Positions 9,202 to 25,159 of a DNA stretch of 64,000 nucleotides are shown here, piece after piece. The DNA is taken from assembly GCF_022763245.1 (NCBI RefSeq), contig NZ_JALEGV010000042.1:1-64000 (forward strand), written 5' to 3'. Each line of letters starts with the position of its first letter. Positions within the stretch are counted from its first letter, which is position 1. The notes under the pieces were generated by a model that was not told where the DNA came from, ran no database searches, and saw only the letters and a list, made by a program, of their open reading frames with translations. This DNA comes from Oricola sp. (GTDB taxonomy: Bacteria; Pseudomonadota; Alphaproteobacteria; Rhizobiales; Rhizobiaceae). Both the position numbers and the translations under genes were made by a program.

Positions 9202-10098
9202 TCAACCTTTCACCGCGCCGGCTGCGATGCCGCGCACGAAGAGCTTGCCGGAAACGAAATAGATGACGAGGGGAACGAGGCCGGTCAGGAGCGTCGCGGC
9301 CATGTTCACATTGTATTCTTTCACGCCCTGCACCGAGTTGACGATGTTGTTGAGCTGCACCGTCATCGGATAGTTTTCGGGCTTGGTGTAGACGACGCCG
9401 AACAGGAAGTCGTTCCAGATGCCCGTCACCTGCAGGATGATCGCAACCACGAAGATCGGCAGGCTCATCGGCAGCATGATCCGGAAATAGATGCCCCAGA
9501 AACCGGCGCCATCCACCCGGGCGGCCTTGAACAGGTCCTCCGGCACGGTCGTGAAGTAGTTGCGAAACAGGAGCGTCAGGATCGGCATGCCGAAGATCGT
9601 GTGGACGATCACCAGGCCGAACAGGTCGGTGTAGAGCCCGACCTCCCTCAGGAGGATGACGATCGGGTAGATCATCACCTGATAGGGGATGAAGGCGCCG
9701 AAGATCAGGATCGTGAAGAACAGGTCTGCACCGCGGAACCGCCAGTTCGCCAGCGCATAGCCGTTCACCGATGCGATCGCGATGGACATCACCACGGACG
9801 GAACAAGGATGCGCACCGAGTTCCAGAAGCCGCGGCTGAGCCCGTCGCAGTTGAGACCCGTGCAGGCCGACGACCACGCCTTCACCCAAGGCTCGAACGT
9901 CACCTCCACCGGCGGCGAGAAGATGTTGCCGAGGCGGATTTCGGGCATGCCCTTCAACGAGGTGACGATCATCACGTAAAGCGGCAGCAGGTAATAGACC
10001 GAGACCACCAGCAGCGTGCCGTACAGAAAGACGTTTCGGCGTGAGAGGGCGGGTCGGGGCTTCGGCCCGCGCGGAGCGTCAAGCGCGGCGTCAGTCAC
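9202..10098 (-). CDS. Carbohydrate ABC transporter permease, MalG type
   Basis: Inner-membrane permease, 298 residues, with about six hydrophobic segments, the first at roughly 25-45. The EAA loop for ATPase contact is visible as EDLFKAARVDGAGFWGIYF. The N-terminus is cytosolic and rich in Pro/Arg. The start overlaps the end of the upstream permease gene by eight bases, and the ATPase gene follows after four bases. It pairs with the MalF-type subunit. The partner glycosidases suggest a mannose- or xylose-containing oligosaccharide as cargo; this is inference. Confidence 0.93.
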   Translation of the reverse strand: MTDAALDAPRGPKPRPALSRRNVFLYGTLLVVSVYYLLPLYVMIVTSLKGMPEIRLGNIFSPPVEVTFEPWVKAWSSACTGLNCDGLSRGFWNSVRILVPSVVMSIAIASVNGYALANWRFRGADLFFTILIFGAFIPYQVMIYPIVILLREVGLYTDLFGLVIVHTIFGMPILTLLFRNYFTTVPEDLFKAARVDGAGFWGIYFRIMLPMSLPIFVVAIILQVTGIWNDFLFGVVYTKPENYPMTVQLNNIVNSVQGVKEYNVNMAATLLTGLVPLVIYFVSGKLFVRGIAAGAVKG

Positions 10099-11020
10099 GG
10101 CGTTTTCCTCCGAATTCGAGATAGGCCCAGGGGATCAGCACGATCAGCACCGACAGGAGCATCATGGTCGAGGCGGCGAAGCCCTGGCCGAGATTGGTCC
10201 GGCCGAACATGAAGTCGTAGACATATTTGGCGGGCACTTCGGAAGCGATGCCCGGCCCGCCGGAGGTCTGCGCGACCACGAGGTCGTAGACCTTGATGAT
10301 GCCGCTCGCGATGAGCACGAGCGTGGTGATGAACACCGCCCGCATCATCGGAATGATGACGAAGACATAGGTCTTCCATTTCGGAATGCCGTCGATGCGC
10401 GCGGCGTTCCAGATGTCCTCGTCGATCCCGCGCATGCCGGCGAGCATCAGGCACATGATCAGGCCCGTTCCCTGCCAGAGCCCTGCGATCAGGACGCCGT
10501 AGATCACCGTTTCGGCATTGTTGAGCGGATTGAAGACGAAGCCCTCCCAGCCGAGATCGCGCACCACTTTCTGGATGCCGAAATCGGGATTGAGGATCCA
10601 CTGCCAGACAAGGCCGGTGACGATGAAGCTCAGCGCGAACGGATAGAGCAGGATCGTGCGGAAGGTGTTTTCGAAACGGATCTTCTGGTCGAGCAGCGCG
10701 GCGAGCACGAAGCCGATCACCAGCGAGAAGATCGCCGAGAGGATGCCGTAGATCGCCAGGTTCTCGATCGAGATGAGCCAGCGATTGGTGGACCACAGGC
10801 GCTCATACTGGTCGAAGCCGACGAATTTCAGCCGCGGTATCGAGCGCGTGGATGTGAATGAATAGACGACCGTCCATATGGTGCAGCCGACGAAGATGAC
10901 CGATGCGGTCAGGACCATCGGAATGGCCGCGATCTTGGCCGTCAGGTTGCGCGTCAGCGGGTTGGGACGGCCCTTCGTGCGCGCGGACGACGCTGACGAC
11001 ACGGCGGTAACTTCAGCCAA
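10091..11020 (-). CDS. Carbohydrate ABC transporter permease, MalF type
   Basis: Inner-membrane permease, 309 residues, with about six predicted membrane segments and the EAA-type loop DEDIWNAARIDGIPKWKTYV. The extended, Ser/Thr/Lys-rich N-terminus precedes the first membrane helix at about 30-55. It lies 123 bases after the binding-protein gene; that gap holds two hairpins. It is the first permease of the operon and overlaps the second by eight bases. Confidence 0.93.
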   Translation of the reverse strand: MAEVTAVSSASSARTKGRPNPLTRNLTAKIAAIPMVLTASVIFVGCTIWTVVYSFTSTRSIPRLKFVGFDQYERLWSTNRWLISIENLAIYGILSAIFSLVIGFVLAALLDQKIRFENTFRTILLYPFALSFIVTGLVWQWILNPDFGIQKVVRDLGWEGFVFNPLNNAETVIYGVLIAGLWQGTGLIMCLMLAGMRGIDEDIWNAARIDGIPKWKTYVFVIIPMMRAVFITTLVLIASGIIKVYDLVVAQTSGGPGIASEVPAKYVYDFMFGRTNLGQGFAASTMMLLSVLIVLIPWAYLEFGGKRRD

Positions 11021-11059
11021 GAAACGATCTCCTCACACAGCATGCTGTCCGCCGCAGCC

Positions 11060-11121
11060 GTGGCGCCCCCGAAGGGCGACGCCACGGCGCGGGCAAGGTG
11101 GCCGGGGACCAGGGTCCGGCC
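11060..11121 (-). terminator. Tandem hairpins between binding-protein and permease genes
   Basis: Two strong GC hairpins sit in the 123-base gap after the binding-protein stop. One pairs GTGGCG (11060-11065) with CGCCAC (11080-11085). The other pairs GGCCGG (11100-11105) with CCGGCC (11116-11121). Neither has a T-run. Such structures after a solute-binding-protein gene usually protect its mRNA or reduce read-through into the permeases, giving an excess of binding protein. The structure is seen; the role is inferred. Confidence 0.55.
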
Positions 11122-11143
11122 GCCCTGCGTACGGCGCCCTCGC

Positions 11144-12382
11144 CTATTCGGCTTCGGACATGATCTGCACGAACTGCTTGTGTGCCTCTTCCGGCGTGAT
11201 CGACTTGTCGAACCAGAACTCGACCCAGAGATCCTCCAGACGACCTTCGGTGTCCGGATTGTTCAACTGTTCGGTGTTCGGCATGACGTTGCCGGCCTTG
11301 AGGATTTCGAGACCTTTCTTCATGCAGGCGTTGGCCGCCTCCAGGTCGACGTCGTTGCGCACCGGCAGCGACCCCTTCTTCAGGTTGAACGCAACCTGGA
11401 CTTCCGGCGAGATCAGCAGCGCCGCGAGTTCCTTCTGCGCGGCCTCGACCTCGGCGTCCTTGCTGACGGGGAAGTAGAAGCTGTCGCCGCCCGTATCGAG
11501 GATCTCGTGCAGGCCGAGACCCGGAAGGCAGTCATAGTCCTTGCCGGCGACTTCACCCGCCACCGAGAACTCGCCCTGCGCCCAGTCGCCCATGATCTGC
11601 GCGGCAGCCTGGTCCGTGATGACGAGATTGGTCGCCTGGTTCCAGTCCTGCACGGCGCTGTCGGCCGCGAATTCGCGCGCCGCGCCGAAGGCCTCGATGA
11701 TCTTGCCCATCTCTTCGCCGGCCGCGGCATCCATGTCGCGGTCGCGATAGATCTTCATCTTCAGATCGACGCCGCCCAGGCCGGTTTCCAGCACGCCGAA
11801 CGCGCCCGACGACTGCCAGGACTGCTGCCCCATCGCCAGCGGGATGATCCCGGCTTCCTTGAGCTTCGGCACCGCCGCGACGAACTCGTACCAATCCTTC
11901 GGCGGCTCCACGCCGGCCTTCTCGAAGGCGGTGCGCGACGTCCACATCCACTGCCAGGAATGGATGTTCACCGGAACGCAGTAATAGCGCCCCTCGAACT
12001 TGCAGTTCTCGAACAGGCCCGGGGCCGATTCCACGTCGAGAACGCCGCTTGCCTCGACGACGTCCGTGATGTCGAGCATCAGGCCGGCTTCGACCATTTC
12101 CTCGGCGTCGCGGCCGGTGTTCATCATCGTCGCGCCCATCGGCTCACCGCCGAGAATGCGGTTGGCGATGACCGGGTTGGCCGCGCCCGAACCGCCGGCG
12201 ATCGCGCCGTCGACCCAGTTGTGCTCGGTCTTCTCGTTGAACGCCTTGGCGAATTCGGCGACCGCGGCAGCCTCGCCGCCGGACGTCCACCAGTGGGTGA
12301 CCTCCAGATCGACCGCACCCGCATTGGCGACCGGCAGCACGGCCGAAGCGGCCAGCGCCGCAATCATTCCACGTAAACGCAT
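11144..12382 (-). CDS. Sugar ABC transporter substrate-binding protein
   Basis: Periplasmic binding protein of the CUT1 family, 412 residues. The ATG at 12382 is preceded by the strong ribosome site GGGAGGAGA, which decides the start; longer frames are spurious. The N-terminus is a signal peptide ending near PVANAGA (about 23), followed by VDLEVTHWWTSGGEAAAV, typical of oligosaccharide-binding proteins. It is the first gene of the sugar operon and is divergent from the lacI-type regulator. The ligand is unknown; the downstream beta-mannosidase, xylosidase and lyxose isomerase point to hemicellulose fragments. Confidence 0.92.
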   Translation of the reverse strand: MRLRGMIAALAASAVLPVANAGAVDLEVTHWWTSGGEAAAVAEFAKAFNEKTEHNWVDGAIAGGSGAANPVIANRILGGEPMGATMMNTGRDAEEMVEAGLMLDITDVVEASGVLDVESAPGLFENCKFEGRYYCVPVNIHSWQWMWTSRTAFEKAGVEPPKDWYEFVAAVPKLKEAGIIPLAMGQQSWQSSGAFGVLETGLGGVDLKMKIYRDRDMDAAAGEEMGKIIEAFGAAREFAADSAVQDWNQATNLVITDQAAAQIMGDWAQGEFSVAGEVAGKDYDCLPGLGLHEILDTGGDSFYFPVSKDAEVEAAQKELAALLISPEVQVAFNLKKGSLPVRNDVDLEAANACMKKGLEILKAGNVMPNTEQLNNPDTEGRLEDLWVEFWFDKSITPEEAHKQFVQIMSEAE

Positions 12383-12399
12383 GTTCTCCTCCCTGAAAA

Positions 12400-12429
12400 C
12401 TGTAACGTTGCAGTAAAACTGTATGCCAA
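12400..12429 (-). promoter_or_regulatory. Promoter and LacI-type operator of the sugar operon
   Basis: On the minus strand a sigma-70-like pair is seen: TTGGCA (12429-12424), 17-base spacer, GTTACA (12406-12401). A near-palindrome CTGTAACGTTGCAG (12400-12413, 12 of 14 positions symmetric around AACGTT) covers the -10 element. A central CG flanked by symmetric arms is the usual form of LacI-family operators, so the divergent LacI protein probably represses here. Confidence 0.6.
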
Positions 12430-12603
12430 GCGATTTCGCCGCGCAACCAGCTTTGGAAAAAATTCTTCGAGCCTCGAATAAATTGAAATTTTCGGCAGGA
12501 AAGCCTTTTAAAATCATGTTTTTGATAGGAATTTCGGCCTCGATGCCCGCCTCATACATACCCGGCTTCGGCATCGCAGCACGGCGCTTCGCAATGCAAC
12601 ATA

Positions 12604-12694: not shown

Positions 12695-13774
12695 ATGGCA
12701 AGAAAAACACAGAAAAAAGAGGCAGATGCGGCGGATCTCGTTGCGGGCCCACCCACCCTCAAATCGATCGCCTTCATCACCGGCTACTCGATCACCACCG
12801 TCTCGCGCGCCCTGAAGGACGCCCCCGACATCGGGCAGGAGGCGAAAGACCGCGTGCGGCTGGTCGCCAAGCAGATCGGCTACCGCCCCAACCGCGCCGG
12901 CGTGCGCCTGCGCACGGGCAAGACGAATGTCATCAGCCTCGTCCTCAACACCGAGGAGGAGGTCATGGGCCTGACGTCGCAGATGGTCTTCGGCATCTCC
13001 GAAGTGCTGCGCGACACGCCCTATCACCTCGTCGTCACCCCCTACTCCCTGCAGAACGACCCGATGGACCCCGTCCGATATGTCGTCGAGACCGGCTCGG
13101 CCGACGGCATCATCCTGTCGCGCATGGAGTTGCAGGACCGGCGCGTGCGCTACCTCACCGAACACGGCATGCCGTTCGCGACGCACGGGCGCACCGACAT
13201 GGGCATCGAACACCCGTGGCACGACTTCGACAATGAGCGCTTCGGCCGCGACGCGGTCGCCAGGCTCGCCCGCCACGGCGTCAGGCGCGCCGCCCTCATC
13301 GCCCCGCCCGACATCCTCACCTATGCCCGCCACATCAAGACCGGCTTCGCCGCCGGCCTGCGCGAACACCGCATCCAGCAGACGCTCATCGACACCATCA
13401 CGGTCGACGACAATCTCGACACGATGCAATCCGGCGTCTGCGAGATGATGCGGTCGCCCGAACGCCCCGACGGCATCGTCTGCAGCAGCGGCAGCGCCGC
13501 CATCGCCGCCACCGCCGGTATCGAAGAGGCCGGTTTCGTCGTCGGGCGCGACGTGCACATCGTGTCCAAGCAGCACACCAACATCCTGAAGCGGTTCCGC
13601 CAGGACATCGAAGTCATCAACGAGGACGTGCGCCAGGGCGGCCGGGATCTCGCGACCTGCGTGATCCGCTCGATCGAGGGCGTGCCCGCGAGCGATCTGC
13701 ACTACCTGTCCTATCCCGACGCGCCGGCCGACGATCTCGAGGCGGCGACGCCCACCGCCCGCGCGGCGGTCTAG
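12695..13774 (+). CDS. LacI family transcriptional regulator
   Basis: DNA-binding repressor, 359 residues. The helix-turn-helix is at about 22-45 (LKSIAFITGYSITTVSRALK), followed by the hinge (IGYRPNRAGVRLRTGKTN) and a periplasmic-binding-protein-like sensor domain. Unusually, about twenty charged residues (Lys/Glu/Asp-rich) precede the HTH, which normally begins within the first few residues of LacI proteins. It is divergent from the sugar operon and is its probable regulator, with a mono- or oligosaccharide of the pathway as inducer. It is convergent with the flavodoxin-like gene, and the two stop codons share the palindrome CTAG at 13771-13774. Confidence 0.92.
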   Translation: MARKTQKKEADAADLVAGPPTLKSIAFITGYSITTVSRALKDAPDIGQEAKDRVRLVAKQIGYRPNRAGVRLRTGKTNVISLVLNTEEEVMGLTSQMVFGISEVLRDTPYHLVVTPYSLQNDPMDPVRYVVETGSADGIILSRMELQDRRVRYLTEHGMPFATHGRTDMGIEHPWHDFDNERFGRDAVARLARHGVRRAALIAPPDILTYARHIKTGFAAGLREHRIQQTLIDTITVDDNLDTMQSGVCEMMRSPERPDGIVCSSGSAAIAATAGIEEAGFVVGRDVHIVSKQHTNILKRFRQDIEVINEDVRQGGRDLATCVIRSIEGVPASDLHYLSYPDAPADDLEAATPTARAAV

Positions 13775-14358
13775 AAGCCGCGCATCCTGCGTTCGACGCG
13801 AGCGAGGAAATCCGCGCGCGACTGCGGGGTCGAGACGTCCATGAGGTAGTGGGCGAGGAAGAGCGTCTTGCAGCGGCGGGCAAACAGGGCACGCATGCCG
13901 CGCATGATGGTGCGCTTGCCGGGATGTCCGACCATGTAGGACCACCAGCGCGGCGCGCCGCAGGTCGTGACGATGGCGAGCTTGCGGATATGCTGCATCA
14001 TCGGCCGGATGCGTTTCGTGTCCGGCGCGATGGAAAACGTGATGTCCGGCGTCCAGACCCGGTCGAGCCACCCCTTCAGCATGGCGGGCAGCCCGTACCA
14101 CCATGTCGGATAGACGAAGACGATCCCTTCGGCCCACTCCAGATGAGCCGCATGCTCCGGAACCGGATGCTGGCCGCGATCCATCTCGTTGTAGATCCGT
14201 CGCTCGTCGCAGCCCATCACCGGATCGAACCCCTCGGCATAGAGGTCGAGCAGACGGATGTCGTTGCCGGCTTCCGTCAGCGCCTTGACGACGACATCCC
14301 GCAGGGCCGCACCGAAGCTCTCGGGAACCGGATGGCAGTAGACCACGAGGAGGCGCAT
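13771..14358 (-). CDS. Flavodoxin-like NAD(P)H:quinone/FMN oxidoreductase (copy 2)
   Basis: 195-residue protein of the flavodoxin-like-fold NAD(P)H dehydrogenase (quinone) family. The N-terminus RLLVVYCHPVPESF is the family FMN-phosphate loop. EGIVFVYPTWWYGLPAMLKG is the second FMN-binding segment, and VTTCGAPRWW the third. The ATG at 14358 overlaps the stop of copy 1 (TGATG), so the two are translationally coupled. It is the last gene of the heterocycle operon. It may supply reduced flavin to, or reoxidise, the linked oxidoreductase; the partner is unknown. Confidence 0.83.
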   Translation of the reverse strand: MRLLVVYCHPVPESFGAALRDVVVKALTEAGNDIRLLDLYAEGFDPVMGCDERRIYNEMDRGQHPVPEHAAHLEWAEGIVFVYPTWWYGLPAMLKGWLDRVWTPDITFSIAPDTKRIRPMMQHIRKLAIVTTCGAPRWWSYMVGHPGKRTIMRGMRALFARRCKTLFLAHYLMDVSTPQSRADFLARVERRMRGF

Positions 14359-14939
14359 CAAAAGGCGTCCATCGCCTCTCCGACCTTCGTGATGAAGCGC
14401 TGGCGCGTCTCATCGGTCGAGCGGTTCATGTCGTAATGCGCCAGATAGGTGAACGGCGCGGCCGGCTTGACGATCGCCCGCAGCACGCGATTGACCGACT
14501 TGCGCGGCGGATCGCCGACAAGCACCGCGCGCAGGCGCGACCCGCCATAGGTCGTCACGACGCCCACCTTGCGAATGTTGTGCAGGCAGGGCTTCACCTT
14601 GCCGTCGGCCATCTTGAACGACACGCCCGGCAGGAAAACCCGGTCGAAGAAGCCTTTCAGGATCGCCGGATAGCCGAAGTTCCACACCGGATAGCTCATC
14701 ACCAAGGCCTCGGCCGCCTGCACCCTTTCCACGTAGCCCTTCACCGGTTCGATGTTCGGGCCGATATCGTGATAAGCGAGACGTTCCTCGCGCGTCAGCC
14801 GAGGGTCGAAATCCTCCGCATAGAGGTTGCAGTCATCGACGTCGTGACCCTTGGCCTTCAGCCGCTCGACGATCAATCCGTGCAGGAAGCCGTTGTAGCT
14901 TTCAGCGACCGGATGGGCATGCAGCACCAGAACGCGCAT
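14358..14939 (-). CDS. Flavodoxin-like NAD(P)H:quinone/FMN oxidoreductase (copy 1)
   Basis: 193-residue paralogue of the next gene. FMN motifs are VLVLHAHPVAESY (3-15), ALVMSYPVWNFGYPAILKG and VTTYGGSRLR. The two copies share layout and the LYAEDFDP/LYAEGFDP block, so they probably arose by tandem duplication and may form a heterodimer. The gene starts four bases after the stop of the FAD-linked oxidoreductase gene in the same operon. Confidence 0.83.
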   Translation of the reverse strand: MRVLVLHAHPVAESYNGFLHGLIVERLKAKGHDVDDCNLYAEDFDPRLTREERLAYHDIGPNIEPVKGYVERVQAAEALVMSYPVWNFGYPAILKGFFDRVFLPGVSFKMADGKVKPCLHNIRKVGVVTTYGGSRLRAVLVGDPPRKSVNRVLRAIVKPAAPFTYLAHYDMNRSTDETRQRFITKVGEAMDAF

Positions 14940-14943
14940 CGCT

Positions 14944-16350
14944 TCAACCCGCTTTCTGGAGACCCTTGAACAGCCACACGCCGCCCGTGTCGTAATCGTA
15001 TTCCGGGTTCTCCCAGGCGATCATCTTGCCGGGGTTCAAGAGGCCCTTCGGATCGGCCTCGCGCTTGAAGGCCAACTGGATGTCGTCGGTCTGCTTCATG
15101 CCGCCCTCTTCAAGCGTGTAACGGTGCGGATTGAAGATCGGCGCGCCCTCGGCGTTGAAGGTCGCCATGATTTCCTCCAGCCGTTCCTCGGTCGAATAGC
15201 GCACCATCGGCAGGCCGAAACAGGTGATGTCGCCGTCGAAGCGCACGAACTCCAGATGGTCGATGATCTCGCCCTCGAACATGCCGTGCAGCTTCTCGAC
15301 AAGCGCCAGCTGGTTCGGGAACGGGTAGAGCACCTGCAAGTAGGTGATCGCCGGATCGATGCGCAGCCCGCGCAGCGTCGTGTGGTTCCACGCAAGCTCG
15401 TAGGCGATCGGCAGACCCCGAAGCTCCTCCTCGGTCATGGCCGCCTTGTTGAACGCGACCCGGCCGCCCTCGCGCGCCGTGAAGGCGAGGAATGCGTCCA
15501 GCGACTGTGGCGCGACCATGCAGATGACGACGCTTTCGCCTTCCTTCAGGAACTTCTGGTGGCGCTTGAAATAATCGAACGGCGCCGGCGCCGAGACCAC
15601 GGTGTTGAGTTTCAGCAGGACGCCGTCGAGGCGGCCGAGCGTGTTCGCATAGGTGGCCGCTTCCATGAAATCGTCGAAGGCCACGATCACGTCGACCCAG
15701 TCATAGGCCGACGTCAGGGGCAGCTCGACCTCGCTGATGATGCCGTTCGTGCCGTAGGCATGCGTGACCTTGTGCAGGTCCGCGCCCGTCAGTTCGAGGA
15801 CGCGCGGCTCCTCCTCCATCGTCACGACGCGCAGCCGGATGACATTGCCGAAATCGCGCAGGCCGCCCCAGCGCGTCGACCCGATCCCGCCCGAACCGCC
15901 GGCGATGAAGCCGCCGACGGTCGCGGTATGCGCGGTCGACGGGTGCATGCGCATCTCCTGGCCGGAGTGCTCGCGCGCCGCCTTGTCGAGGTCGGAGCAG
16001 ATGACGCCCGGACCGACGACCGCCCGACCGGGAGCGATCTCCTTGATCTCGTTCATGTCGGCCAGCGACAGCACGACACCGCCCGAAAGCGGCATGGCCT
16101 GGCCGTAATTGCCGGTGCCCGTGCCGCGCGGCGTCACCGGAACGCCGTGCCTGTAGCAGGCCTTCAGCACGCGGATCAGCTCTTCCTCGGTCTTCGGCGA
16201 AACGATCAGGTCGCCGGTGACATGATCGAGGCGCTCCTTGAGAACCGGGGAGTACCAGTAGAAATCGCGGCTCTTCTGCTGGACGATCTTGTCGTTGTCT
16301 TCGACCTTGATCCCGTCGATATCCGCCTTGAGTGCCTGCAAGTCAGCCAT
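14944..16350 (-). CDS. FAD-binding (PCMH-type) oxidoreductase
   Basis: Cytosolic flavoprotein of the FAD_binding_4 group (glycolate oxidase GlcD / D-lactate dehydrogenase-like), 468 residues. The FAD domain spans about 40-220 and shows TPRGTGTGNYGQAMPLSGG and the glycine-rich GGFIAGGSGGIGSTRWG. A C-terminal substrate/cap domain follows, ending with the family motif LLNPGKM. It lies between the amidohydrolase gene (three-base gap) and the flavodoxin-like pair (four-base gap), so it is part of the heterocycle operon. It may oxidise a 2-hydroxy acid or the ring product made by the amidohydrolase; the substrate is not deducible. Confidence 0.87.
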   Translation of the reverse strand: MADLQALKADIDGIKVEDNDKIVQQKSRDFYWYSPVLKERLDHVTGDLIVSPKTEEELIRVLKACYRHGVPVTPRGTGTGNYGQAMPLSGGVVLSLADMNEIKEIAPGRAVVGPGVICSDLDKAAREHSGQEMRMHPSTAHTATVGGFIAGGSGGIGSTRWGGLRDFGNVIRLRVVTMEEEPRVLELTGADLHKVTHAYGTNGIISEVELPLTSAYDWVDVIVAFDDFMEAATYANTLGRLDGVLLKLNTVVSAPAPFDYFKRHQKFLKEGESVVICMVAPQSLDAFLAFTAREGGRVAFNKAAMTEEELRGLPIAYELAWNHTTLRGLRIDPAITYLQVLYPFPNQLALVEKLHGMFEGEIIDHLEFVRFDGDITCFGLPMVRYSTEERLEEIMATFNAEGAPIFNPHRYTLEEGGMKQTDDIQLAFKREADPKGLLNPGKMIAWENPEYDYDTGGVWLFKGLQKAG

Positions 16351-16353
16351 TCA

Positions 16354-17667
16354 TCACTCCATCAAATGATCCAGTTCCTCATAGGCGGGCAGCGTGCGGT
16401 CGATCACCGCGCCTCCACGCACCACGATGCGCCCGCTCTCCGGGCGTGACAGCACCTCGGTCCAGGAGCGTCCCTCGCAGATCACGAAATCCGCGGGCCC
16501 GCCCGTCACAAGTTTGCCGTAGCTCTCGTCCAATCCCATCGCCCCGGCCGGATTGGCCAGCACCGTCTTCGGCCAGTCCGCGACGGGGTGATCGAAATGG
16601 ATCGTCCGCGTCGCCATGCGATACACCTCGATCATGTCGAGATCGCCATAGGCATAGAAGGGGTCGCGGGTGTTGTCGGAGGCGACGCAGACGTTGATGC
16701 CGCGCGCCTTCATCTCGTGCAACAGCGTGACGCCGCGCCAGCGCGGCGTCGTCCCGTCGAAGCGACGGTCCTGCAGGTACATGTTGCACATCGGCAGAGA
16801 GACGACGGAAATGTTGCAGTCGGCAACGGCGTCCAGCGTGCGCAGCACCTCGTCGTCGGGCTGACGGGCGAGCGCACAGCAATGGCCGATCAGGATGCGA
16901 CCTTCATAGCCGTGCCGCTTCGCCGCCTCTGCGATCTTGCGCAGCGAGACCGCTTCAAGGGCGTCCGTTTCGTCGGCGTGAAAATCGAGATGCAGATCAT
17001 GCTCGATTGCGGCGCGGAAGATCATGTCGAGCAACTCGTCCATGTCCGGCACCATGTAGGTCACCGCGCCGAGCACGCCGCCGGCCTTGCGGACACGGTC
17101 GACCAGCGTGTTGAACCAGGCCTCGTCGCGCCCCGTGTCGATGCCGAAAAGGCACGCGCCCTGCAGATCGATCCGCCCCGCCCAGCGCTCGCGCATCATT
17201 TCGAAGACCGGCCAGGAAATCGTCTCCTGCGGCGGCAGGGAGTCCAGATGGGTGCGGATCGCCTTCGTGCCGTACGCCCAGGCGCATTTCAGCGCGAATT
17301 CCATGCGCGCCTCGATGTCCTCGGCCGTCCACTTGGCGGGACGGTCGGCGCCGACCGCCTCCAGCGCCCCGTTGAACGAGCCGTCGCGATTGGGACGGCG
17401 CGGCCAGATGTGCCCCTTGTCGAGATGGGTGTGGCAATCGACGAAAGCGGGCATGACGACACGGCGACGCATATCGTTCTCTGCGCCTTCGCTCTGTATG
17501 CCCGAAGGCGTGATCGCCGCGATGCGGCCGTTCTCGACGGTCAGGTCGTAAACCGCGAAGCCGTCGCGATCATGTTCGCCGCCCGCATCGTCGATCCAGG
17601 ATTCGTGCAGGTTCGCCCGATGCAGCGTGAAACCCGTATCGGTTCGAAGGATGGTACCGCCAGACAT
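16354..17667 (-). CDS. Cytosine-deaminase-like metal-dependent amidohydrolase
   Basis: 437-residue amidohydrolase of the CodA/cytosine deaminase subgroup, cytosolic. The metal and catalytic residues are in place: H79 and H81 (CHTHLDKGH), H229 and E232 (DFHADET), H261 (IGHCCAL) and D330 (VASDN). The H229/E232 spacing equals that of E. coli cytosine deaminase (H214/E217). The ATG at 17667 overlaps the stop of the permease gene (TGATG), so it is coupled to the importer. The enzyme probably deaminates or hydrolyses an imported N-heterocycle; cytosine, creatinine or isoguanine-type substrates are possible, but sequence alone does not decide. Confidence 0.85.
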   Translation of the reverse strand: MSGGTILRTDTGFTLHRANLHESWIDDAGGEHDRDGFAVYDLTVENGRIAAITPSGIQSEGAENDMRRRVVMPAFVDCHTHLDKGHIWPRRPNRDGSFNGALEAVGADRPAKWTAEDIEARMEFALKCAWAYGTKAIRTHLDSLPPQETISWPVFEMMRERWAGRIDLQGACLFGIDTGRDEAWFNTLVDRVRKAGGVLGAVTYMVPDMDELLDMIFRAAIEHDLHLDFHADETDALEAVSLRKIAEAAKRHGYEGRILIGHCCALARQPDDEVLRTLDAVADCNISVVSLPMCNMYLQDRRFDGTTPRWRGVTLLHEMKARGINVCVASDNTRDPFYAYGDLDMIEVYRMATRTIHFDHPVADWPKTVLANPAGAMGLDESYGKLVTGGPADFVICEGRSWTEVLSRPESGRIVVRGGAVIDRTLPAYEELDHLME

Positions 17668-18536
17668 CAATGCTCCTGTTTCAGCGCGCTCTCGTGCCAG
17701 CGATGCAGGATCCGGTTCGCGAACCAGCTCAGTACGAGGAAGATGAGAATGCCCGTGAACGAGATCAGGATCAGCGCGGCGAAGAGCCGCGGCGCGTTCA
17801 GGCGATAACCGGCCTCGATGATGCGGCTGGCAAGCCCCGAGGACTGGCCCGACGCGCCCGCGACGAATTCGGCGACGACAGCGCCGATCAGCGACAGACC
17901 GCCCGCGATCTTCAATCCGCCGAGGAAATAGGGCATCGAAGCGGGCAGCCGCAGATGCCACAGCGTTTGCCAGCGCGACGCGCCGTTGAGCTTGAACAGG
18001 TCCAGCAGGTTGCGATCGACCGAGTTCAGGCCAAGCGTCGTGTTCGACAGGATCGGGAAGAAGGCGACGATCCAGGCGCACAGCAGGAGCTTGGCGGTCT
18101 GGTTGTCCACATAGATGTTGATCAGCGGGAAGATCGCCACGATCGGCGTCACCTGCAGCACGACCGCGAACGGAAAGAAGCTCATCTCGATCCACTTCGA
18201 CTGCGTGAACAGCACCGAGAGCCCGACGCCGCCGATCACGGCGAGCGCCAGCGACAGGAAGGTGATCTTGAGCGTGGTCACCAGCGAGGAAAACAGCAGC
18301 CCGCTATCCGCGATGAGCGTCGCAAGCACCTCGCCCGGGCGCGGCAGGATGTAGCGCGGGATCTCGTTCCAGACGCAGATCCGGTCCCACATGACGATCG
18401 CCAGCACCATGATCAGGATCGGCAGCACCCATTTGCCCGTCTTCTCGAGCTTGCGCTGACGCGCGCGGCGCGCCTCTTCGGCATCGACCATGACGGTCAG
18501 GTCACCGCCCTGCGGTGTGGCTTCAGTGGAGGACAT
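17667..18536 (-). CDS. ABC transporter permease (SsuC/TauC/ThiX type)
   Basis: Inner-membrane permease of an NMT1-linked importer, 289 residues, with about six membrane helices starting near residue 35. The coupling loop reads NLLDLFKLNGASRWQTLWHLRLPASMPYFLGG, the typical form for taurine/nitrate/pyrimidine-precursor permeases, shown here only as residues of the EAA-like region. It overlaps the ATPase gene by 14 bases at its start and the amidohydrolase gene by TGATG at its end. A paralogous system lies at 34182-38553. Confidence 0.9.
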   Translation of the reverse strand: MSSTEATPQGGDLTVMVDAEEARRARQRKLEKTGKWVLPILIMVLAIVMWDRICVWNEIPRYILPRPGEVLATLIADSGLLFSSLVTTLKITFLSLALAVIGGVGLSVLFTQSKWIEMSFFPFAVVLQVTPIVAIFPLINIYVDNQTAKLLLCAWIVAFFPILSNTTLGLNSVDRNLLDLFKLNGASRWQTLWHLRLPASMPYFLGGLKIAGGLSLIGAVVAEFVAGASGQSSGLASRIIEAGYRLNAPRLFAALILISFTGILIFLVLSWFANRILHRWHESALKQEH

Positions 18537-19341
18537 GATCGCCCCCTCCCTCGCCTTCCAGACCCATTGCCGTGCGCAGGAGCGAGGACGCCTTGCGCGT
18601 CAGATGCGCATAGGCCTCCGACGTCCGGAACTTCTCGTCGCGCGGATAAGGCGCGTCCACCACCATCTCGCCGAACACGCGGCCGGGATGGGCGGCCATG
18701 ACGACGATGCGGTTCGACAGGAAGACGCTCTCGAACACGCTGTGGGTCACGAAGATCACGGTGAAGCGCTCGCGTTCCCACAGCGCCAGAAGGTCGCTGT
18801 TCAGCTGGAAGCGGGTGATCTCGTCGAGCGCGGCGAAGGGTTCGTCCATGAGCAGGACGCGCGGCCGCGTCACCAGCCCGCGCGCGATCGACACGCGCAT
18901 CTTCATGCCGCCGGAAAGTTCGCGCGGCACCGCGTCCTCGAAGCCCGTCAGGTTCACCTGCGCGAGGACTTTCTTCACCTGCGGCTCGGCCTGGGCGCGC
19001 GACACGCCCTGCAGGCGCAGCGGCAGCCAGACATTGTCGAAGACGCTCGCCCAGGGCATCAGCGTCGGCTCCTGGAAGACGAAACCGATATCGGCCTTGC
19101 CCATCGGCGCGCCGTGCCAGTCGAGCAACCCGGAGGTCGGCGACGACAGGCCCGCGATCAGCCGGAGCGCGGTGGATTTGCCGCAGCCCGACGGACCCAG
19201 AAGGCTGAGGAAATCGCCGTGATTGATGGTCATGTTGACGTCGCTCAGAGCGACGACATCATTTCCGAAGGTCTTGCCGACGGACCGCAGGATAAGCTGC
19301 GCCCCGCCGGTTTGAGGCTTTTCGGCCAGTTGCATGTCCAC
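18523..19341 (-). CDS. ABC transporter ATP-binding protein (SsuB/TauB type)
   Basis: 272-residue cytosolic ATPase. Walker A GPSGCGKST, the signature ELSGGMKMR, Walker B VLLMDEPFAALDE and the switch histidine in VTHSVFE are all present. The start is a GTG at 19341 with AAGG nine bases upstream; an ATG at 19335 is the alternative. It lies 20 bases after the binding-protein gene and overlaps the permease gene by 14 bases. Confidence 0.91.
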   Translation of the reverse strand: MDMQLAEKPQTGGAQLILRSVGKTFGNDVVALSDVNMTINHGDFLSLLGPSGCGKSTALRLIAGLSSPTSGLLDWHGAPMGKADIGFVFQEPTLMPWASVFDNVWLPLRLQGVSRAQAEPQVKKVLAQVNLTGFEDAVPRELSGGMKMRVSIARGLVTRPRVLLMDEPFAALDEITRFQLNSDLLALWERERFTVIFVTHSVFESVFLSNRIVVMAAHPGRVFGEMVVDAPYPRDEKFRTSEAYAHLTRKASSLLRTAMGLEGEGGGDHVLH

Positions 19342-19361
19342 GAGGAAATGCCTTTTCGCAG

Positions 19362-20357
19362 TTACTTCTTCAGGTCGAGCCCGACGCCCTTGTTGACGAA
19401 GTCCAGCGTGTAGGCCTTCTCGATGTCGATGCCCGCAGCCATGACGCCGGCATCGACCATCTTGCCGTAGAACTCGGCGATATGCTCGGCGGTCATCGCG
19501 CCGATGCCCATGGTCTCGGTGTCACCGGAATCGACGATGCCGAATTCCTTCATCTTCTCGATGGAGAAGGCGATCTGCTCGTCCGTGATGTCCGGATTGT
19601 CCTTCTTGATCATCTCGTTGGCGGCGGCGTTGTCGCCGTAGAGATAGTTGTACCAGCCCTTGGCGGAGCCATCGACGAAGCAGGCCACGACTTCCGGACG
19701 CTCGTCGATCGTCTTCTGCATGGTTTCCACGGTGGTCGCGTAGGTGGTGAAGCCGTAGTCGGCCAGGAGGAAGAGGTTCGGCTTGAAACCGCCCTCACGC
19801 TCGACCGCATAGGGCTCGGAGGTCACGTAGCCCTGCTGCACCGACTTCGGGTTGGCGATGAAGGGCGCCGGGTTGAAGGTGTAGGGAATGCGCTTCGAGG
19901 CGTCGAAGCCGAAATCCTTGATCATCCACTGGAAGTAGGTCTGGAAGCCCTCGTCGCCGAGGATGTACTGCTCGGCATCCTTCAGCTCTTCCCAGGTGTC
20001 CAACCCTTCGCCGGGATGGCTCATGAGCACCTGCGGCTCCTTCTGGAAATGCGCCGCGACGACCTTGAGCGGGATCTCCTGCTCGACGGCCGAGAAGGCC
20101 TGCAGGAGGTTGCCGCCCATGTAGAAGTCGATCTTGCCGGCCAGCATCAGCGGACGACCGGAAACCTGCGGTCCGCCCGGCATGATTTCGACCTCGAGGC
20201 CGCACGCTTCATAGGTGCCGTCGGCAACCGCCTGGTAGTAGCCGCCATGCTCGGCCTGAGCGAGCCAGTTGGTGCCGAAGGTCACCTTCTCGGCAGCGCC
20301 AGCCTGCGTTGAAAGAACCGCGAAAACGGCCGTGCTTGCCAGAAGAATCCGTTTCAT
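19362..20357 (-). CDS. NMT1/ThiY-type ABC transporter substrate-binding protein
   Basis: Periplasmic binding protein, 331 residues. The start is the ATG at 20357 with GAGAGG seven bases upstream. A signal peptide ends near STQAGA (about 20), and the mature start EKVTFGTNWLAQAEHGGYY is typical of the NMT1/THI5-like fold. This fold binds small heterocycles (pyrimidine, riboflavin or thiamine precursors), sulfonates or nitrate. It is the first gene of the heterocycle operon and is divergent from ridA/creatininase. It is clearly related to the protein at 34182-35153. The ligand is unknown. Confidence 0.88.
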   Translation of the reverse strand: MKRILLASTAVFAVLSTQAGAAEKVTFGTNWLAQAEHGGYYQAVADGTYEACGLEVEIMPGGPQVSGRPLMLAGKIDFYMGGNLLQAFSAVEQEIPLKVVAAHFQKEPQVLMSHPGEGLDTWEELKDAEQYILGDEGFQTYFQWMIKDFGFDASKRIPYTFNPAPFIANPKSVQQGYVTSEPYAVEREGGFKPNLFLLADYGFTTYATTVETMQKTIDERPEVVACFVDGSAKGWYNYLYGDNAAANEMIKKDNPDITDEQIAFSIEKMKEFGIVDSGDTETMGIGAMTAEHIAEFYGKMVDAGVMAAGIDIEKAYTLDFVNKGVGLDLKK

Positions 20358-20591
20358 GTTCACACCTCTCTGCTGATGCATGGTCGTGAGCGCCATGCGT
20401 TTGATCCTCGGTCCCGAATGCAAGTGATATGCCACCCGCAGCAACGCCCGGGAGGCATCAAATCCACTGTGCGCCCCACAATGCCCCCTTCCGGGCCAGC
20501 CCAGTATTAGCGCAAGATGCTCAAAAAAACAGCACGCTTGTGTTTGCCTTTGCGCTTTGCATTATGGGCCCGCAATCGAGCGGAGAAGCCC
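20358..20591. promoter_or_regulatory. Divergent promoter region of the heterocycle cluster
   Basis: This 234-base region lies between the binding-protein gene (minus) and the RidA gene (plus). On the plus strand a sigma-70-like pair TTGTGT (20538-20543), 16-base spacer, CATTAT (20560-20565) would start transcription near 20572, just before the TTG start at 20592. I could not identify the minus-strand promoter or an operator. No regulator gene is linked to this cluster. Confidence 0.45.
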
Positions 20592-21005
20592 TTGTTCACG
20601 CACCTCACCCCGGCCGACATCCGGCCGCCTTTCGCCAAATACAGCCATGGAATCGAAGTGCCGGAAGGCATGCGCCTCGTGTTTTGCTCGGGCCAGCTCG
20701 GCATCGACACCGACGACGGCATTCCTGCCGAAACGGAAGCCCAGACGCGGCTCTGCTTCGCCAATGTCGAATCGATCCTGAAGGATGCCGGGCTCGGGCT
20801 TGGCGACATCGTGCGCATCAACGCCTATGTCACCGGGCGCGAACATCTGAAGCCCTACATGGCGGTGCGCGACGAACTGTTCGCCGATCCGGCCCCCGCC
20901 TCGACGCTGATGATCGTCTCCGGCTTTGCGAGACCCGAATTCACGGTCGAGATCGAGGTGATCGCGGCCGGACCCGCAACGACTGGCGAAGGGAGCGGCA
21001 AATGA
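20592..21005 (+). CDS. RidA/YjgF/YER057c/UK114 family protein
   Basis: RidA-fold protein, 137 residues. RidA hydrolyses reactive enamine/imine intermediates, and paralogues in catabolic clusters act as deaminases on pathway intermediates. Seen: LVFCSGQLGIDTDDG, NVESILKDAGLGLGDIV, INAYVTGREH and the conserved arginine and glutamate in ARPEFTVEIEVIA. I chose the TTG at 20592 with GGAG six bases upstream because a promoter lies just before it and the family starts at this point. An ATG at 20517 would add 25 atypical residues. It overlaps the creatininase gene by ATGA. Confidence 0.85.
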   Translation: MFTHLTPADIRPPFAKYSHGIEVPEGMRLVFCSGQLGIDTDDGIPAETEAQTRLCFANVESILKDAGLGLGDIVRINAYVTGREHLKPYMAVRDELFADPAPASTLMIVSGFARPEFTVEIEVIAAGPATTGEGSGK

Positions 21006-21805
21006 CCCGGCGTTTCTGGTGGGGCGACTTCACGTCGCGCGAATTCGACAATCTCGACGCGGATGCCGTCATTGCCGTCCTGCCCATCGCGGCGACCGAA
21101 CAGCACGGCCCGCATCTGCCGGTCTCGACCGACCACTCGATCATGGCCGGCATGCTGGAAACCGTCTTCCCGCTGATGCCGGACGGGGTCGACATGCGCG
21201 TTCTGCCGATCCAGTCGGTCGGCAAGTCGAACGAGCACATCCGCTCGCCCGGCACGCTCACCATCTCGGCGACGACGCTGATCGACCATTGGTGCGATCT
21301 CGGCGCCTCGGTCGCCCGTGCCGGAATCCGAAAGCTCGTCATCGTGAATTCGCATGGCGGCAACGAGGAGGTCATGGGGATCGTCGCGCGCGAATTGCGC
21401 GTGCGCCACGACATGATGGTCGCCAAGACCTCCTGGATGCGCTTCGGCCTGCCGGAGAACCTCTATGGCGATTACGAGCGCAAATACGGCATCCATGGCG
21501 GCGACGTCGAGACGTCGCTGATGCTGCATTTCACCGCCGACACGGTGAAGATGGACAAGGCCGAGGACTTCACCTCCCGTGTCGCCGCGGCCCAGCAGCA
21601 GTTCACCCACATCGCCCATACCGGCCCGAACGCCTTCGCCTGGATCGCCCCCGACGTCAATCCGGCCGGCGCCATCGGCGAGGCGGCCAAGGCCACGGCC
21701 GAGAAGGGCCGCCTGACCGCCGAACACCAGGCGAAAGGCTTCGTCGAACTGATCGGCGACATGGCCCAGGCCAAACTCGCCGACTGGATCGTCGCGAAGA
21801 GCTAG
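21002..21805 (+). CDS. Creatininase family amidohydrolase
   Basis: 267-residue enzyme of the creatininase/FAPy-deformylase (ArfB-like) family, which hydrolyses cyclic or formyl amides. The metal ligands are all visible: E33, H35 and D44 (EQHGPHLPVSTDH), plus H118 and E122 (NSHGGNEE), aligning with E34, H36, D45, H120 and E122 of Pseudomonas creatininase. The ATG overlaps the RidA stop (ATGA). With RidA and the divergent deaminase-like amidohydrolase it suggests stepwise ring opening of an N-heterocycle. Its stop shares CTAG (21802-21805) with the convergent cueR. True creatinine hydrolysis is one option but unproven. Confidence 0.85.
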   Translation: MTRRFWWGDFTSREFDNLDADAVIAVLPIAATEQHGPHLPVSTDHSIMAGMLETVFPLMPDGVDMRVLPIQSVGKSNEHIRSPGTLTISATTLIDHWCDLGASVARAGIRKLVIVNSHGGNEEVMGIVARELRVRHDMMVAKTSWMRFGLPENLYGDYERKYGIHGGDVETSLMLHFTADTVKMDKAEDFTSRVAAAQQQFTHIAHTGPNAFAWIAPDVNPAGAIGEAAKATAEKGRLTAEHQAKGFVELIGDMAQAKLADWIVAKS

Positions 21806-22200
21806 GCGGAAACGCCCTCCCCGGCCAGATCGTCGATGATCGGACAATCCGGCCGGCCGTCGCCGTGGCAATGGCGCGCGAGCGTCGAGAGCGTGTCGCG
21901 CAGCGATTGCAGGTCCGCGATTTTGCGCTCGATCTCGGCGACCTTCTCCAGCGCCATCGCCTTCACGTCGGCGCTGGCGCGCTGCTTGTCGTCATAGAGC
22001 GACAACAAGAGCCGGCATTCGTCGATCGTGAAGCCGAGGCTGCGCGAGCGCTGCAGGAAACGCAGCCGGTGCACGTCGTTGTCGGAGTAGTCGCGATAGC
22101 CGTTTTCCGCCCGTCCCGGCGTGATCAGGCCGATCTCCTCGTAATAGCGGATCGTCTTGGCCGGCAGGCTGGCCTTCTCGGCCGCGTTTCCGATATTCAT
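21802..22200 (-). CDS. cueR: CueR, copper-responsive MerR-family activator
   Basis: 132-residue MerR-family regulator. The N-terminal winged HTH reads IGNAAEKASLPAKTIRYYEE. A dimerisation helix follows, and the metal loop carries C111 and C119 in CHGDGRPDC, matching C112 and C120 of E. coli CueR, with a serine at 76 as in +1-ion sensors. The ATG at 22200 has GGGAGG upstream; a GTG at 22206 is less likely. It lies 11 bases after the CopA ATPase stop on the same strand, so it is probably co-transcribed with the pump it activates. Confidence 0.93.
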   Translation of the reverse strand: MNIGNAAEKASLPAKTIRYYEEIGLITPGRAENGYRDYSDNDVHRLRFLQRSRSLGFTIDECRLLLSLYDDKQRASADVKAMALEKVAEIERKIADLQSLRDTLSTLARHCHGDGRPDCPIIDDLAGEGVSA

Positions 22201-22211
22201 CGCCACCTCCC

Positions 22212-24593
22212 CTAGAGCTTCAGCGACCGCAGCCGCAGCGCGTTCGAAATCACCGAGACCGACGACAGGCTCATCGCCGCAGCCGCGATCATCGGCGACA
22301 GGAGCGTGCCCGTCAGCGGATAGAGAATGCCGGCCGCCACCGGAACGCCGATCGTGTTGTAGGCGAAGGCGAAGAACAGGTTCTGCCGGATGTTGGCGAG
22401 CGTCGCCTGCGCCAGCTTGCGCGCCTTGGCCACGCCCTGCAGGTCGCCCTTCAGGAGCGTGATGCCCGCGCTCTCCATCGCCACGTCGGCTCCGGTGCCC
22501 ATGGCGATGCCGACATCGGCCGCGGCCAGCGCCGGCGCGTCATTGACGCCGTCTCCGGCCATGGCGACGCTGCGCCCCTGGGCTTGCAGTTCCGCGACAA
22601 GCGCCTGCTTGTCCTCGGGAAGGACGCCGGCGCGCACCTCGTCGATGCCGAGTGCGGCCGCCACGGCGTTGGCCGTGCGCTCATTGTCGCCGGTCGCCAT
22701 GATGACGCGCAATCCCGCCTCGTGGAGCGCCTTGATGGCGCCGGCCGTCGTCTGCTTGACCGGATCGGCGACCGCCACGAGACCGGCGATCTCGCCGTCG
22801 ACGGCGATGAGCATCACGGTCTTGCCCTCGCCGCGCAACGCATCGGCCTTCTGCGCAGCCGCGCCGGACTGGACGCCTTCGGCCTCCATCATCGCCGCAT
22901 TGCCGAGCGCAACCGCCCTGCCGCCGACAGAGCCCTTCACGCCCTTGCCGGTGAGCGCCTCGAAGCCCGAAGCCGAACCGGCGGCGATGCCGCGCTCCGA
23001 CGCGCCAGAGACGATCGCCTCCGCCAGCGGGTGTTCGGACCCCTTCTCAAGCGCCGCGGCGAGAGCGAGCACGTCGTCCTCGGAAACTGAGCCGAGCGCG
23101 ACGACATCAGTCAGCTTCGGTTTGCCTTCGGTCAGCGTGCCGGTCTTGTCGACGATCACCGTGTCGACGGCCGCCATGCGTTCCAGCGCACCGGCCTCGC
23201 GCACCAGGACGCCGGCCTGCGCGCCGCGTCCGGTGGCGGTCATGATCGACATCGGCGTCGCCAGACCGAGCGCACAGGGACAGGCGATGATCAGCACCGA
23301 AACGGCCGACACGATGGCGAAGACGAACGCCGGCTGCGGGCCCCAGACCAGCCAGGCGACGAAGGCTAGGACCGCGACGCTGACGACCGCCGGCACGAAA
23401 TAGGAGGCCACGCGGTCGGCGAGACCCTGGATCGGCGCACGCGAGCGCTGCGCCGACGCGACCATCTCGACGATATGCGAGAGCATCGTGTCCGAACCGA
23501 CCTTCGTCGCCTCGATCACCAGCGTGCCGTTCTTGTTGATCGTGCCGCCGGTGACCGTGTCGCCTTCGGACTTCTCCACGGGCACCGGTTCGCCGGTGAT
23601 CATGCTCTCGTCGACCGCCGTGTGGCCGTCCAGCACGACCGCATCGACAGGGATGCTGTCGCCGGGCCGCACGCGCATCCGGTCGCCTTCGATGATGTTG
23701 TCCAGCGGCGCGTCATATTCGTCGCCGTCGGGCGTGATGCGCCGCGCCGTCTTCGGCGCAAGGTCGAGCAGCGCCTTGATGGCGTCGCCGGTGCGTTCGC
23801 GGGCACGCAGTTCAAGCACCTGACCGACGAAGACCAGTGCGATGATCACCACCGCGGCCTCGAAATAGACCGGCACATGACCGCCGGCCATGCGCATGGT
23901 GTCGGGAAACAGTCCCGGCACGAAGGTCGCCACCACGCTGTAGGCATAGGCCGCCGCCACGCCGAGCATGATCAGCGTCCACATGTTGAAGTTGCGCGTC
24001 ACGATCGACATCCAGCCGCGCTGGAAGAACGGCCGTGCCGCCCACAGCACCACCGGCGTCGCCAGCACGAATTCGGCATAGAGGGCGACGCGCTCGCCGA
24101 TCCATTCGCGCACCGGCAGGCCGACCATCGCGCCCATGGTCAGGATCAGGAGCGGGATCGCCGCGCCGGCGCTGACCCAGAGACGCCGGGTGAAGTCGAT
24201 CAGCTCTTCGTTCGGCCCTTCCGAAACGCCGCTCATCGGCTCCAGCGCCATGCCGCAGATCGGACAGGTGCCGGGCCCTTCCTTGACGATCTCCGGATCC
24301 ATCGGACAGGTGTAGAGGGCGTTGGCGGGCGCGGTCTTCTTCTTCTTTTTGTTGTTGCCCGACAGGAAGAAATAGGGATCGGCCTCGAAGCGGTCGTAGC
24401 ACTTCGGATTGCAGAAATGATACTCCTCGCCCTTGTATTTCAACGAGGGCTTGCCGGCGTTCAGCTTCACCGTCATTCCGCAGACGGGATCGATGGCGGT
24501 CGCTCCATCCGGCGGCGGGGTCTCCGTCTTGGCGGAACCGCAGCAGCCGCCGTCATGCTTGTGCTCGTGATGAGCGTGATCGTGATGGTCCAT
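22212..24593 (-). CDS. copA: Copper-exporting P1B-type ATPase CopA
   Basis: 793-residue inner-membrane pump that exports Cu(I). In place of the usual N-terminal CxxC metal domain it has a His-rich head (residues 1-14), a YHS-type domain (DPVCGMTV to CNPKCYDRF, about 35-75) and a heavy-metal-binding segment (TCPMDP... [10 protein letters not shown], 95-119). The P-type core shows TGE (333-335), the membrane CPC (438-440), the phosphorylated D482 in [17 protein letters not shown] and GDGVND. The start is the ATG at 24593, directly after a CueR-type promoter; longer frames run through that promoter and are wrong. Confidence 0.93.
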
Positions 24594-24621
24594 CGTCAAA
24601 CCTTCCAGTCTTGGCAACCCT

Positions 24622-24652
24622 GAGATAGGGCTTCCAGTAACTGGAAGGTCAA
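24622..24652 (-). promoter_or_regulatory. CueR-activated promoter of copA-cueR
   Basis: On the minus strand: -35 TTGACC (24652-24647), a 19-base spacer, -10 TATCTC (24627-24622). The over-long 19-base spacer is the mark of MerR-activated promoters. The spacer holds the perfect 15-bp palindrome TTCCAGTTACTGGAA (24646-24632), close to known CueR operators. Transcription would start about 20 bases before the copA ATG. Confidence 0.88.
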
Positions 24653-24721
24653 GCGCCTTTATTTCGATGCCCTTTTTCTGCGCCTGAGCGTCGCGCAGCT
24701 GGACCAGATGCCCTGCCGAGG

Positions 24722-25159
24722 TCAGACCTGAAGGCGCTCCAGCGCCTCCCGGCACGTCGCATCGAGCGGCGCCGGCCGGCGTGTCTTCGCATCCACATAG
24801 ACATGCACGAAGAAGCCCTCGGCAGCGGCCGTTTCCTCGTCATTGCGGAAGAGGCCGACCTCGTATCGCACCGAGCTCGTGCCGAGCCGGGTCACCTTGA
24901 TGCCTGCGTGGACGGTGTCGGGAAACGCCATCTCGGCATGGTAGCGGCAGCCCGTCTCGACAACGAGACCGATCGTTTCGCTGCTGGTCGGGTCAAGCAG
25001 GCCGTTCTCGATCAGCCAGCCATTCACGGCCGTGTCGAAGAGCGAATAATGCACGACATTGTTCATGTGGCCGTAGACGTCATTGTCCATCCACCGGGTC
25101 GTGATGACCCGGAAGACGGCATAGTCCGCGCGCATTGTCGGTTTCGGCCGATCACCCAT
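24722..25159 (-). CDS. Acyl-CoA thioesterase, 4-hydroxybenzoyl-CoA thioesterase-like hotdog
   Basis: 145-residue single-hotdog protein. The family block [23 protein letters not shown] contains the catalytic Asp region; [15 protein letters not shown] and [17 protein letters not shown] follow in order. It probably cleaves acyl-CoA thioesters in the cytosol; the substrate is unknown. The start is the ATG at 25159, with a GTG directly before it at 25162. It stands alone: the urt operon terminator lies downstream of its 5' side, and the cop promoter lies past its 3' end. The 25160-25322 stretch holds no gene and no promoter that I could define. Confidence 0.82.

Follow-up and report, generated by a model that had tools for sequence, protein, structure and literature searches.

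A conserved nine-gene cluster in Oricola sp. that may degrade a pterin-type compound

A cluster of nine genes lies between positions 13771 and 21805 of the window, by which we mean the whole stretch of DNA analysed: the first 64,000 nucleotides of contig NZ_JALEGV010000042.1 of Oricola sp. (RefSeq assembly GCF_022763245.1). Seven genes on the minus strand encode an ATP-binding cassette (ABC) importer, a CodA-like amidohydrolase, a flavin adenine dinucleotide (FAD)-binding enzyme and two flavodoxin-fold reductases, and two genes on the plus strand encode RidA-family and creatininase-family proteins (Table 1). A first-pass annotation, made from the nucleotide letters, had placed the nine genes at these positions and on these strands, and Pfam agrees with its family names for all nine. 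It had also described the minus-strand genes as separated by 20 bases or fewer, and indeed the spacings are -4, 4, 3, -4, -14 and 20 bases when the upstream TTG at 17670 is taken as the start of the amidohydrolase gene; if the ATG is used, that gene overlaps the permease gene by 1 base. The genes red1 and red2 overlap by 4 bases, and the divergent RidA and creatininase genes are coupled, as annotated, by an ATGA overlap at 21002-21005. RidA has two candidate starts, the TTG at 20592 and an upstream ATG at 20517. Judged by its position, the gap between the two units probably contains the promoters of both. The binding protein matched a single solved chain by sequence, 4nmy (E value 1.1e-9). Among the NCBIfam matches listed (the best 25 of 181 for the ATPase and the best 25 for the amidohydrolase), only the amidohydrolase exceeded a curated cut-off.

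Table 1. Features of the cluster, with positions in the window
Feature	Position	Strand	Support
red2, NAD(P)H oxidoreductase of Flavodoxin_2 fold	13771..14361	-	PF02525, 110.9 bits
red1, NAD(P)H oxidoreductase of Flavodoxin_2 fold	14358..14939	-	PF02525, 98.4 bits
FAD-binding enzyme (VAO/PCMH-type), close kin of flavin oxygenase PDB 6v42	14944..16350	-	Pfam FAD_binding_4
CodA-like amidohydrolase	16354..17667	-	Pfam Amidohydro_3; NCBIfam PRK07583, labelled cytosine deaminase, 606 bits
ABC importer permease	17667..18536	-	BPD_transp_1, 82.8 bits
ABC importer ATPase	18523..19341	-	ABC_tran, 114.4 bits
Periplasmic binding protein, NMT1/THI5 family	19362..20357	-	PF09084 (NMT1), 71.3 bits
Divergent intergenic region, putative promoters for both units	20358..20591	.	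234-bp gap
RidA-family protein, Ser instead of Arg105	20592..21005	+	PF01042 (Ribonuc_L-PSP), 79.6 bits
Creatininase-family metallohydrolase	21002..21805	+	PF02633, 223.4 bits

The nine genes form a real unit that is common to many soil and marine bacteria. Neighbourhoods were drawn from the best 80 of 525 relatives in an amidohydrolase scan, the nearest being those of Oricola indica (89%), an "Ahrensia" metagenome-assembled genome (86%) and Oricola nitratireducens (86%). Loci spanning 19 kb or more, 58 in all, with roughly 9 kb on each side, were treated as full neighbourhoods, and genes were scored as present at identity thresholds of 45 to 50%. The FAD gene is present in 56 of the 58, a flavodoxin-fold reductase (red1 or red2, at least 45%) in 55, the permease and the ATPase in 49 each, and the binding protein in 48. 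Linkage of the two divergent units, for which this comparison had been set beforehand as the test, was borne out: RidA is present in 46 neighbourhoods and creatininase in 42, and the two occur together in 39. Moreover, orders and strands differ, with the creatininase gene found before RidA, after the reductases or upstream, and thus the linkage survives rearrangement. In a second comparison of 61 genomes, the window's own and 60 relatives, the amidohydrolase was found in 19 at 45% identity or more, and RidA, at the same threshold, was present in those 19 and missing from the remaining 42 (hypergeometric log10 p = -15.5, with kinship of the genomes not corrected for). The two genes lie within 5 kb of each other in 18 of the 19. 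More broadly, the FAD gene was detected in 149 of 394 genomes of the same family (E value 1e-100 or lower) and in 19 of 385 genomes of the class (1e-60 or lower). Nine annotated plasmid regions were also examined, seven picked by an FAD match and two, from Aminobacter, by an amidohydrolase match. All seven of the former, from alpha-, beta- and gammaproteobacteria, carry the binding protein, ATPase, permease, FAD, RidA, creatininase and amidohydrolase genes; RidA of the Klebsiella and Comamonadaceae copies was taken from the annotation, and the Klebsiella amidohydrolase (30%) and creatininase (36%), neither of which is annotated, were found by tblastn.

The FAD protein points to a substrate. 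It shares 77% identity across 465 residues with PDB chain 6v42 (E value 1.7e-253), an entry released in December 2020 with the title "Crystal structure of the flavin oxygenase with cofactor bound involved in folate catabolism." A structural model of the protein, built from an alignment of 34 sequences (the window's and 33 of 72 homologues; pLDDT 84.5), has the same fold, with 6v42 as its top Foldseek match (E value 7e-67, TM score 0.92) and lactate dehydrogenases next (E value 1.5e-21). Of the 72 FAD homologues, those most similar to 6v42 come from Hoeflea loci (85-89%), where the nine genes recur in unchanged order wherever the contig is long enough. Identity as a glycolate oxidase or other 2-hydroxyacid dehydrogenase was rejected on score and domain content, as the protein reaches 99 bits against the GlcD equivalog, for which the cut-off is 567.9, and Pfam finds FAD_binding_4 only. 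The cluster most likely degrades a pterin because its FAD protein is so close to this folate-catabolism enzyme, and we put at roughly 60% the probability that the genes make up a conserved module for the catabolism of a pterin-type fragment of folate, with a logic like that of the Rut system. The compound, which had been called unidentified, is no longer wholly so. As to the earlier remark that no named pathway has this gene set, the open-access literature (subscription journals being mostly outside the scope of the search) yielded neither a description of the set as a pathway nor, even by code, the paper behind 6v42 and 6v43; the 6v42 title nevertheless names folate catabolism, and pterin degradation was among the outcomes that the annotation had listed as counting against it. 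Since a PDB title had already tied a close relative of the central enzyme to folate catabolism, the cluster is not a categorical novelty; what the present analysis usefully adds is the full conserved gene set and three off-family residue signatures. A homarine pathway was also considered, and the literature search gave nothing relevant to it.

The residue signatures revise the first-pass statement that all key catalytic residues are intact, which holds for the metal ligands and the acid/base residues checked but fails at CodA Gln156, RidA Arg105 and creatininase Tyr121 and Glu122. The amidohydrolase is 27% identical to Escherichia coli CodA and was compared with it across 78 homologues, chosen at 50% identity or more, using what we take to be the CodA residue numbers, Gln156 included. 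Like CodA, all 78 keep the equivalents of His61, His63, His214, Glu217, His246 and Asp313. Unlike CodA, they have Gly (67), Pro (7) or Ala (4) at the position of Gln156, and all 78 have Asn for Asp314 and Phe for Trp319. According to PMC12828455, the intermediate is stabilised by a glutamine placed after strand 3 in CodA and after strand 1 in guanine deaminase, and Asn and Ala substitutions of it are inactive. By reading, the HTHLDKGHIWPR stretch after strand 1 of the window enzyme holds no glutamine. Gln115 is invariant in the 78 close homologues and gives way to Ser, Ala or Thr in the three most divergent sequences aligned; that it substitutes for the CodA glutamine is a guess. The enzyme scores 606 bits against NF005759 (PRK07583, "cytosine deaminase"), above the cut-off of 403, yet the label looks wrong for this clade because the CodA catalytic glutamine is absent from all 78, and the name is doubtful. 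For the same reason, an ordinary cytosine deaminase was rejected.

The RidA and creatininase-family proteins likewise depart from their named relatives. The position of Arg105, presumably the residue on which the imine deaminase activity of RidA depends, is Ser in all 54 sequences (the window's and 53 homologues) and also in one beta- and one gammaproteobacterial copy; the RidA beside an Aminobacter amidohydrolase, outside the module, has Arg. The protein scores 56.8 bits against TIGR00004, below the cut-off of 106.25. The creatininase-family protein shares 28% identity with Pseudomonas creatininase and, under residue numbers that we assume to be correct, keeps the metal ligands Glu34, His36, Asp45 and His120 in all 24 rows of an alignment (the window and 23 of 52 homologues). 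Unlike creatininase, all 24 have Gly at both Tyr121 and Glu122, and the window protein falls short of TIGR04448 (90.9 bits; cut-off 235). The Trp154 and Trp174 positions depend on the alignment and were left out. Creatinine degradation was rejected on the residues at 121 and 122 and on the TIGR04448 score. Changes in all three enzymes are seen in many alphaproteobacterial copies and in one betaproteobacterial copy, and for the gammaproteobacterial copy the check covered the RidA change. The three appear to have been re-tooled together, as would fit one dedicated pathway. Since all three are changed, imine deaminase, cytosine deaminase and creatininase activities are not to be assumed; the gene set still supports the earlier proposal of uptake and ring-opening catabolism of a nitrogen heterocycle.

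How the cluster might degrade a pterin can be sketched. The NMT1-type ABC importer would take up the compound, and the CodA-like amidohydrolase would strip an amino group or cleave a C-N bond of the ring by hydrolysis. Reduction of the FAD enzyme, directly or via free flavin, would fall to the two flavodoxin-fold NAD(P)H reductases, and the FAD enzyme would oxygenate and open the ring. The RidA-like and creatininase-family proteins would then hydrolyse unstable enamine or imine and amide or ureido intermediates, with ammonia or urea released as a nitrogen source. The scheme starts from what was observed here (gene presence, linkage, the residue changes and the kinship to 6v42); we infer from this the portion of folate that is attacked, the sequence of the reactions and what the reductases, RidA and creatininase do. 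The order of steps is its weakest point. The Rut system (RutA-G, RutR), a pathway for pyrimidines such as uracil, combines an importer, flavin-dependent ring oxygenation with a reductase, and RidA-family and amide-hydrolysing partners, and the logic proposed for the window cluster is the same; moreover, a RutR-like regulator or RutB-like gene lies next to some copies. Unlike the luciferase-like RutA, however, the window oxygenase is VAO-type, RidA scores 30 bits against a RutC cut-off of 169, and no other Rut model was matched by the nine among the matches listed. The resemblance is one of logic, not membership. A more specific proposal, that a VAO-type flavin oxygenase and three re-tooled enzymes make up a proteobacterial pteridine-ring-opening pathway, the folate-pterin counterpart of Rut, falls in our estimate a little short of even odds.

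Several observations weigh against a pterin module. The folate catabolism and flavin oxygenase assignments come, for the present cluster, from kinship to a protein described in a PDB title. Gene content varies: of the 58 full neighbourhoods, the FAD gene is missing from 2, RidA from 12 and creatininase from 16; 8, mostly from Bosea, have the amidohydrolase, FAD and reductase genes alone, and 1 has the amidohydrolase by itself. Both Aminobacter plasmid regions (L143 and L144) encode amidohydrolase homologues of 59-61% and lack the FAD and creatininase genes. Conversely, creatininase homologues of 52-63% occur without a close amidohydrolase in 5 of the 61 genomes (G033, G013, G020, G007 and G023), and a sixth genome, G048, has one at 48%; to judge from these homologues, the family has further partners besides this cluster. 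Among 58 hand-picked neighbour proteins scanned, from 311 neighbour families, none was an unambiguous folate or pterin gene, and some neighbours suggest purines as much as pterins. Finally, PMC12828455 gives guanine-like 2-amino-4-oxo rings as substrates of the GuaD cluster and isocytosine, which has the same pattern, as accepted by the GuaD and CodA clusters. The extension of this rule to the pterin ring is our own, and under it pterin would be handled by a GuaD-type enzyme. An amidohydrolase that lacks the CodA glutamine may perhaps not deaminate intact pterin, and the CodA-like enzyme may instead act on a later or differently tautomerised intermediate. We note that the Aminobacter amidohydrolase genes are surrounded by isochorismatase, tautomerase, amidohydrolase and DpsA-like genes; L143 and L144 are a different catabolic cluster.

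Paralogous copies of the module keep enzymes and swap the importer. The window's own genome has a second amidohydrolase/FAD pair at C18:739539-742691 (locus L117, C18:731001-750500), accompanied by an ABC importer of the 2-aminoethylphosphonate type, a RutR-like regulator and a sulfatase-like protein. Its counterpart in genome G003, L137, carries amidohydrolase, FAD, creatininase and RidA genes with a RutR-like regulator and a sulfatase-modifying-enzyme-like gene. The RutR-like regulators of L117, L137 and L140 are all under the RutR cut-off. In L120, an isochorismatase is closest to the RutB model, also under cut-off, with homologues of 66-69% in L125 and L128, and an AtzE-family amidase is above its cut-off. 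Urea carboxylase and allophanate hydrolase genes adjoin one Rhizobium copy, and a PaoABC-type molybdenum hydroxylase, which could oxidise a pterin aldehyde or hydroxylate a pterin, adjoins another. These single cases fit pyrimidine-type ring opening and are suggestive only. Other neighbours, namely a glyoxylate-reductase-like gene (7 loci), a PRK06107-like aminotransferase (6 loci), a 2-oxoglutarate-Fe(II) oxygenase (7 loci, at least 33%) and a UshA-like nucleotidase (4 loci), do not converge on one substrate.

Perhaps the module degrades an oxidised or modified purine, such as 8-oxoguanine or a methylated guanine, and the folate title records one tested substrate or a working hypothesis. An enzyme of the PRK08203 8-oxoguanine deaminase family, to which the CodA-like enzyme does not belong, is encoded near RidA in 13 of the 80 loci, with Uma2-type genes between the two in L052 and L056. 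The window's own genome pairs such a gene with another creatininase-family gene at C33:559335-561451, a pairing also present in several relatives (e.g., G001, G002, G004, G005, G006 and G009). The UshA-like nucleotidase and a solute carrier family 23 gene near one copy point the same way. Isoxanthopterin deaminase is, however, a relative of the 8-oxoguanine deaminase family, so that such a neighbour does not separate purine from pterin. Moreover, neither the window cluster nor any of the other 67 loci has the gene, and the solved relative of the FAD enzyme bears a folate title. We consider a purine substrate unlikely. Members of the PRK08203 family also act on isocytosine, according to PMC6186785, and the presence of the family in the 13 loci suits pyrimidine-type ring opening as well.

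Alternatively, the substrate might be another cyclic amide or guanidine compound, such as a hydantoin, a creatinine analogue or a pyrimidine, which was the open-ended proposal of the first-pass annotation. The presence of creatininase-family, RidA-family and CodA-like proteins would suit such a compound, as would the RutB-like and AtzE-like genes near some loci. None of the three enzymes, however, keeps all of the checked residues of its named family, no Rut equivalog reached its cut-off for the nine genes among the matches listed, and the 6v42 title again names folate; we hold this alternative to be rather improbable, somewhat more so than a purine. That the two divergent units are merely unrelated neighbours is hardly credible: 9 of the 58 neighbourhoods have the amidohydrolase with neither RidA nor creatininase, and in genome G055 RidA lies 1.2 Mb from the amidohydrolase beside a creatininase gene, but co-occurrence in 19 of 19 genomes against 0 of 42, proximity in 18 of the 19, and linkage kept across several gene orders and in one beta- and one gammaproteobacterial copy all argue otherwise.

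To our knowledge, little has been established about the bacterial genes for recycling folate's pterin half. If the cluster does degrade a pterin, many genomes hold the pathway under misleading automatic names; in the plasmid regions examined they are annotated as cytosine deaminase, creatininase family and RidA family. Rhizobium johnstonii 3841, a tractable strain, carries one copy on its plasmid pRL12, and this copy is open to direct testing.

Two regulatory genes flank the cluster in the window. A LacI-type regulator at 12695-13774 lies tail to tail with red2 and adjoins the cluster in only 3 of the 58 full neighbourhoods, those of the closest relatives. A homologue of the MerR-like gene on the other side is near the cluster in 6 of the 58. 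At the thresholds used, both were rejected as cluster members on these counts. Beside the LacI gene, at 9202-12574, is what by eye looks like a sugar ABC importer. Beside the creatininase gene, at 21802-24755, the MerR-like gene is accompanied by a minus-strand P-type metal ATPase gene, also identified by eye, and the two are apparently not related to the cluster.

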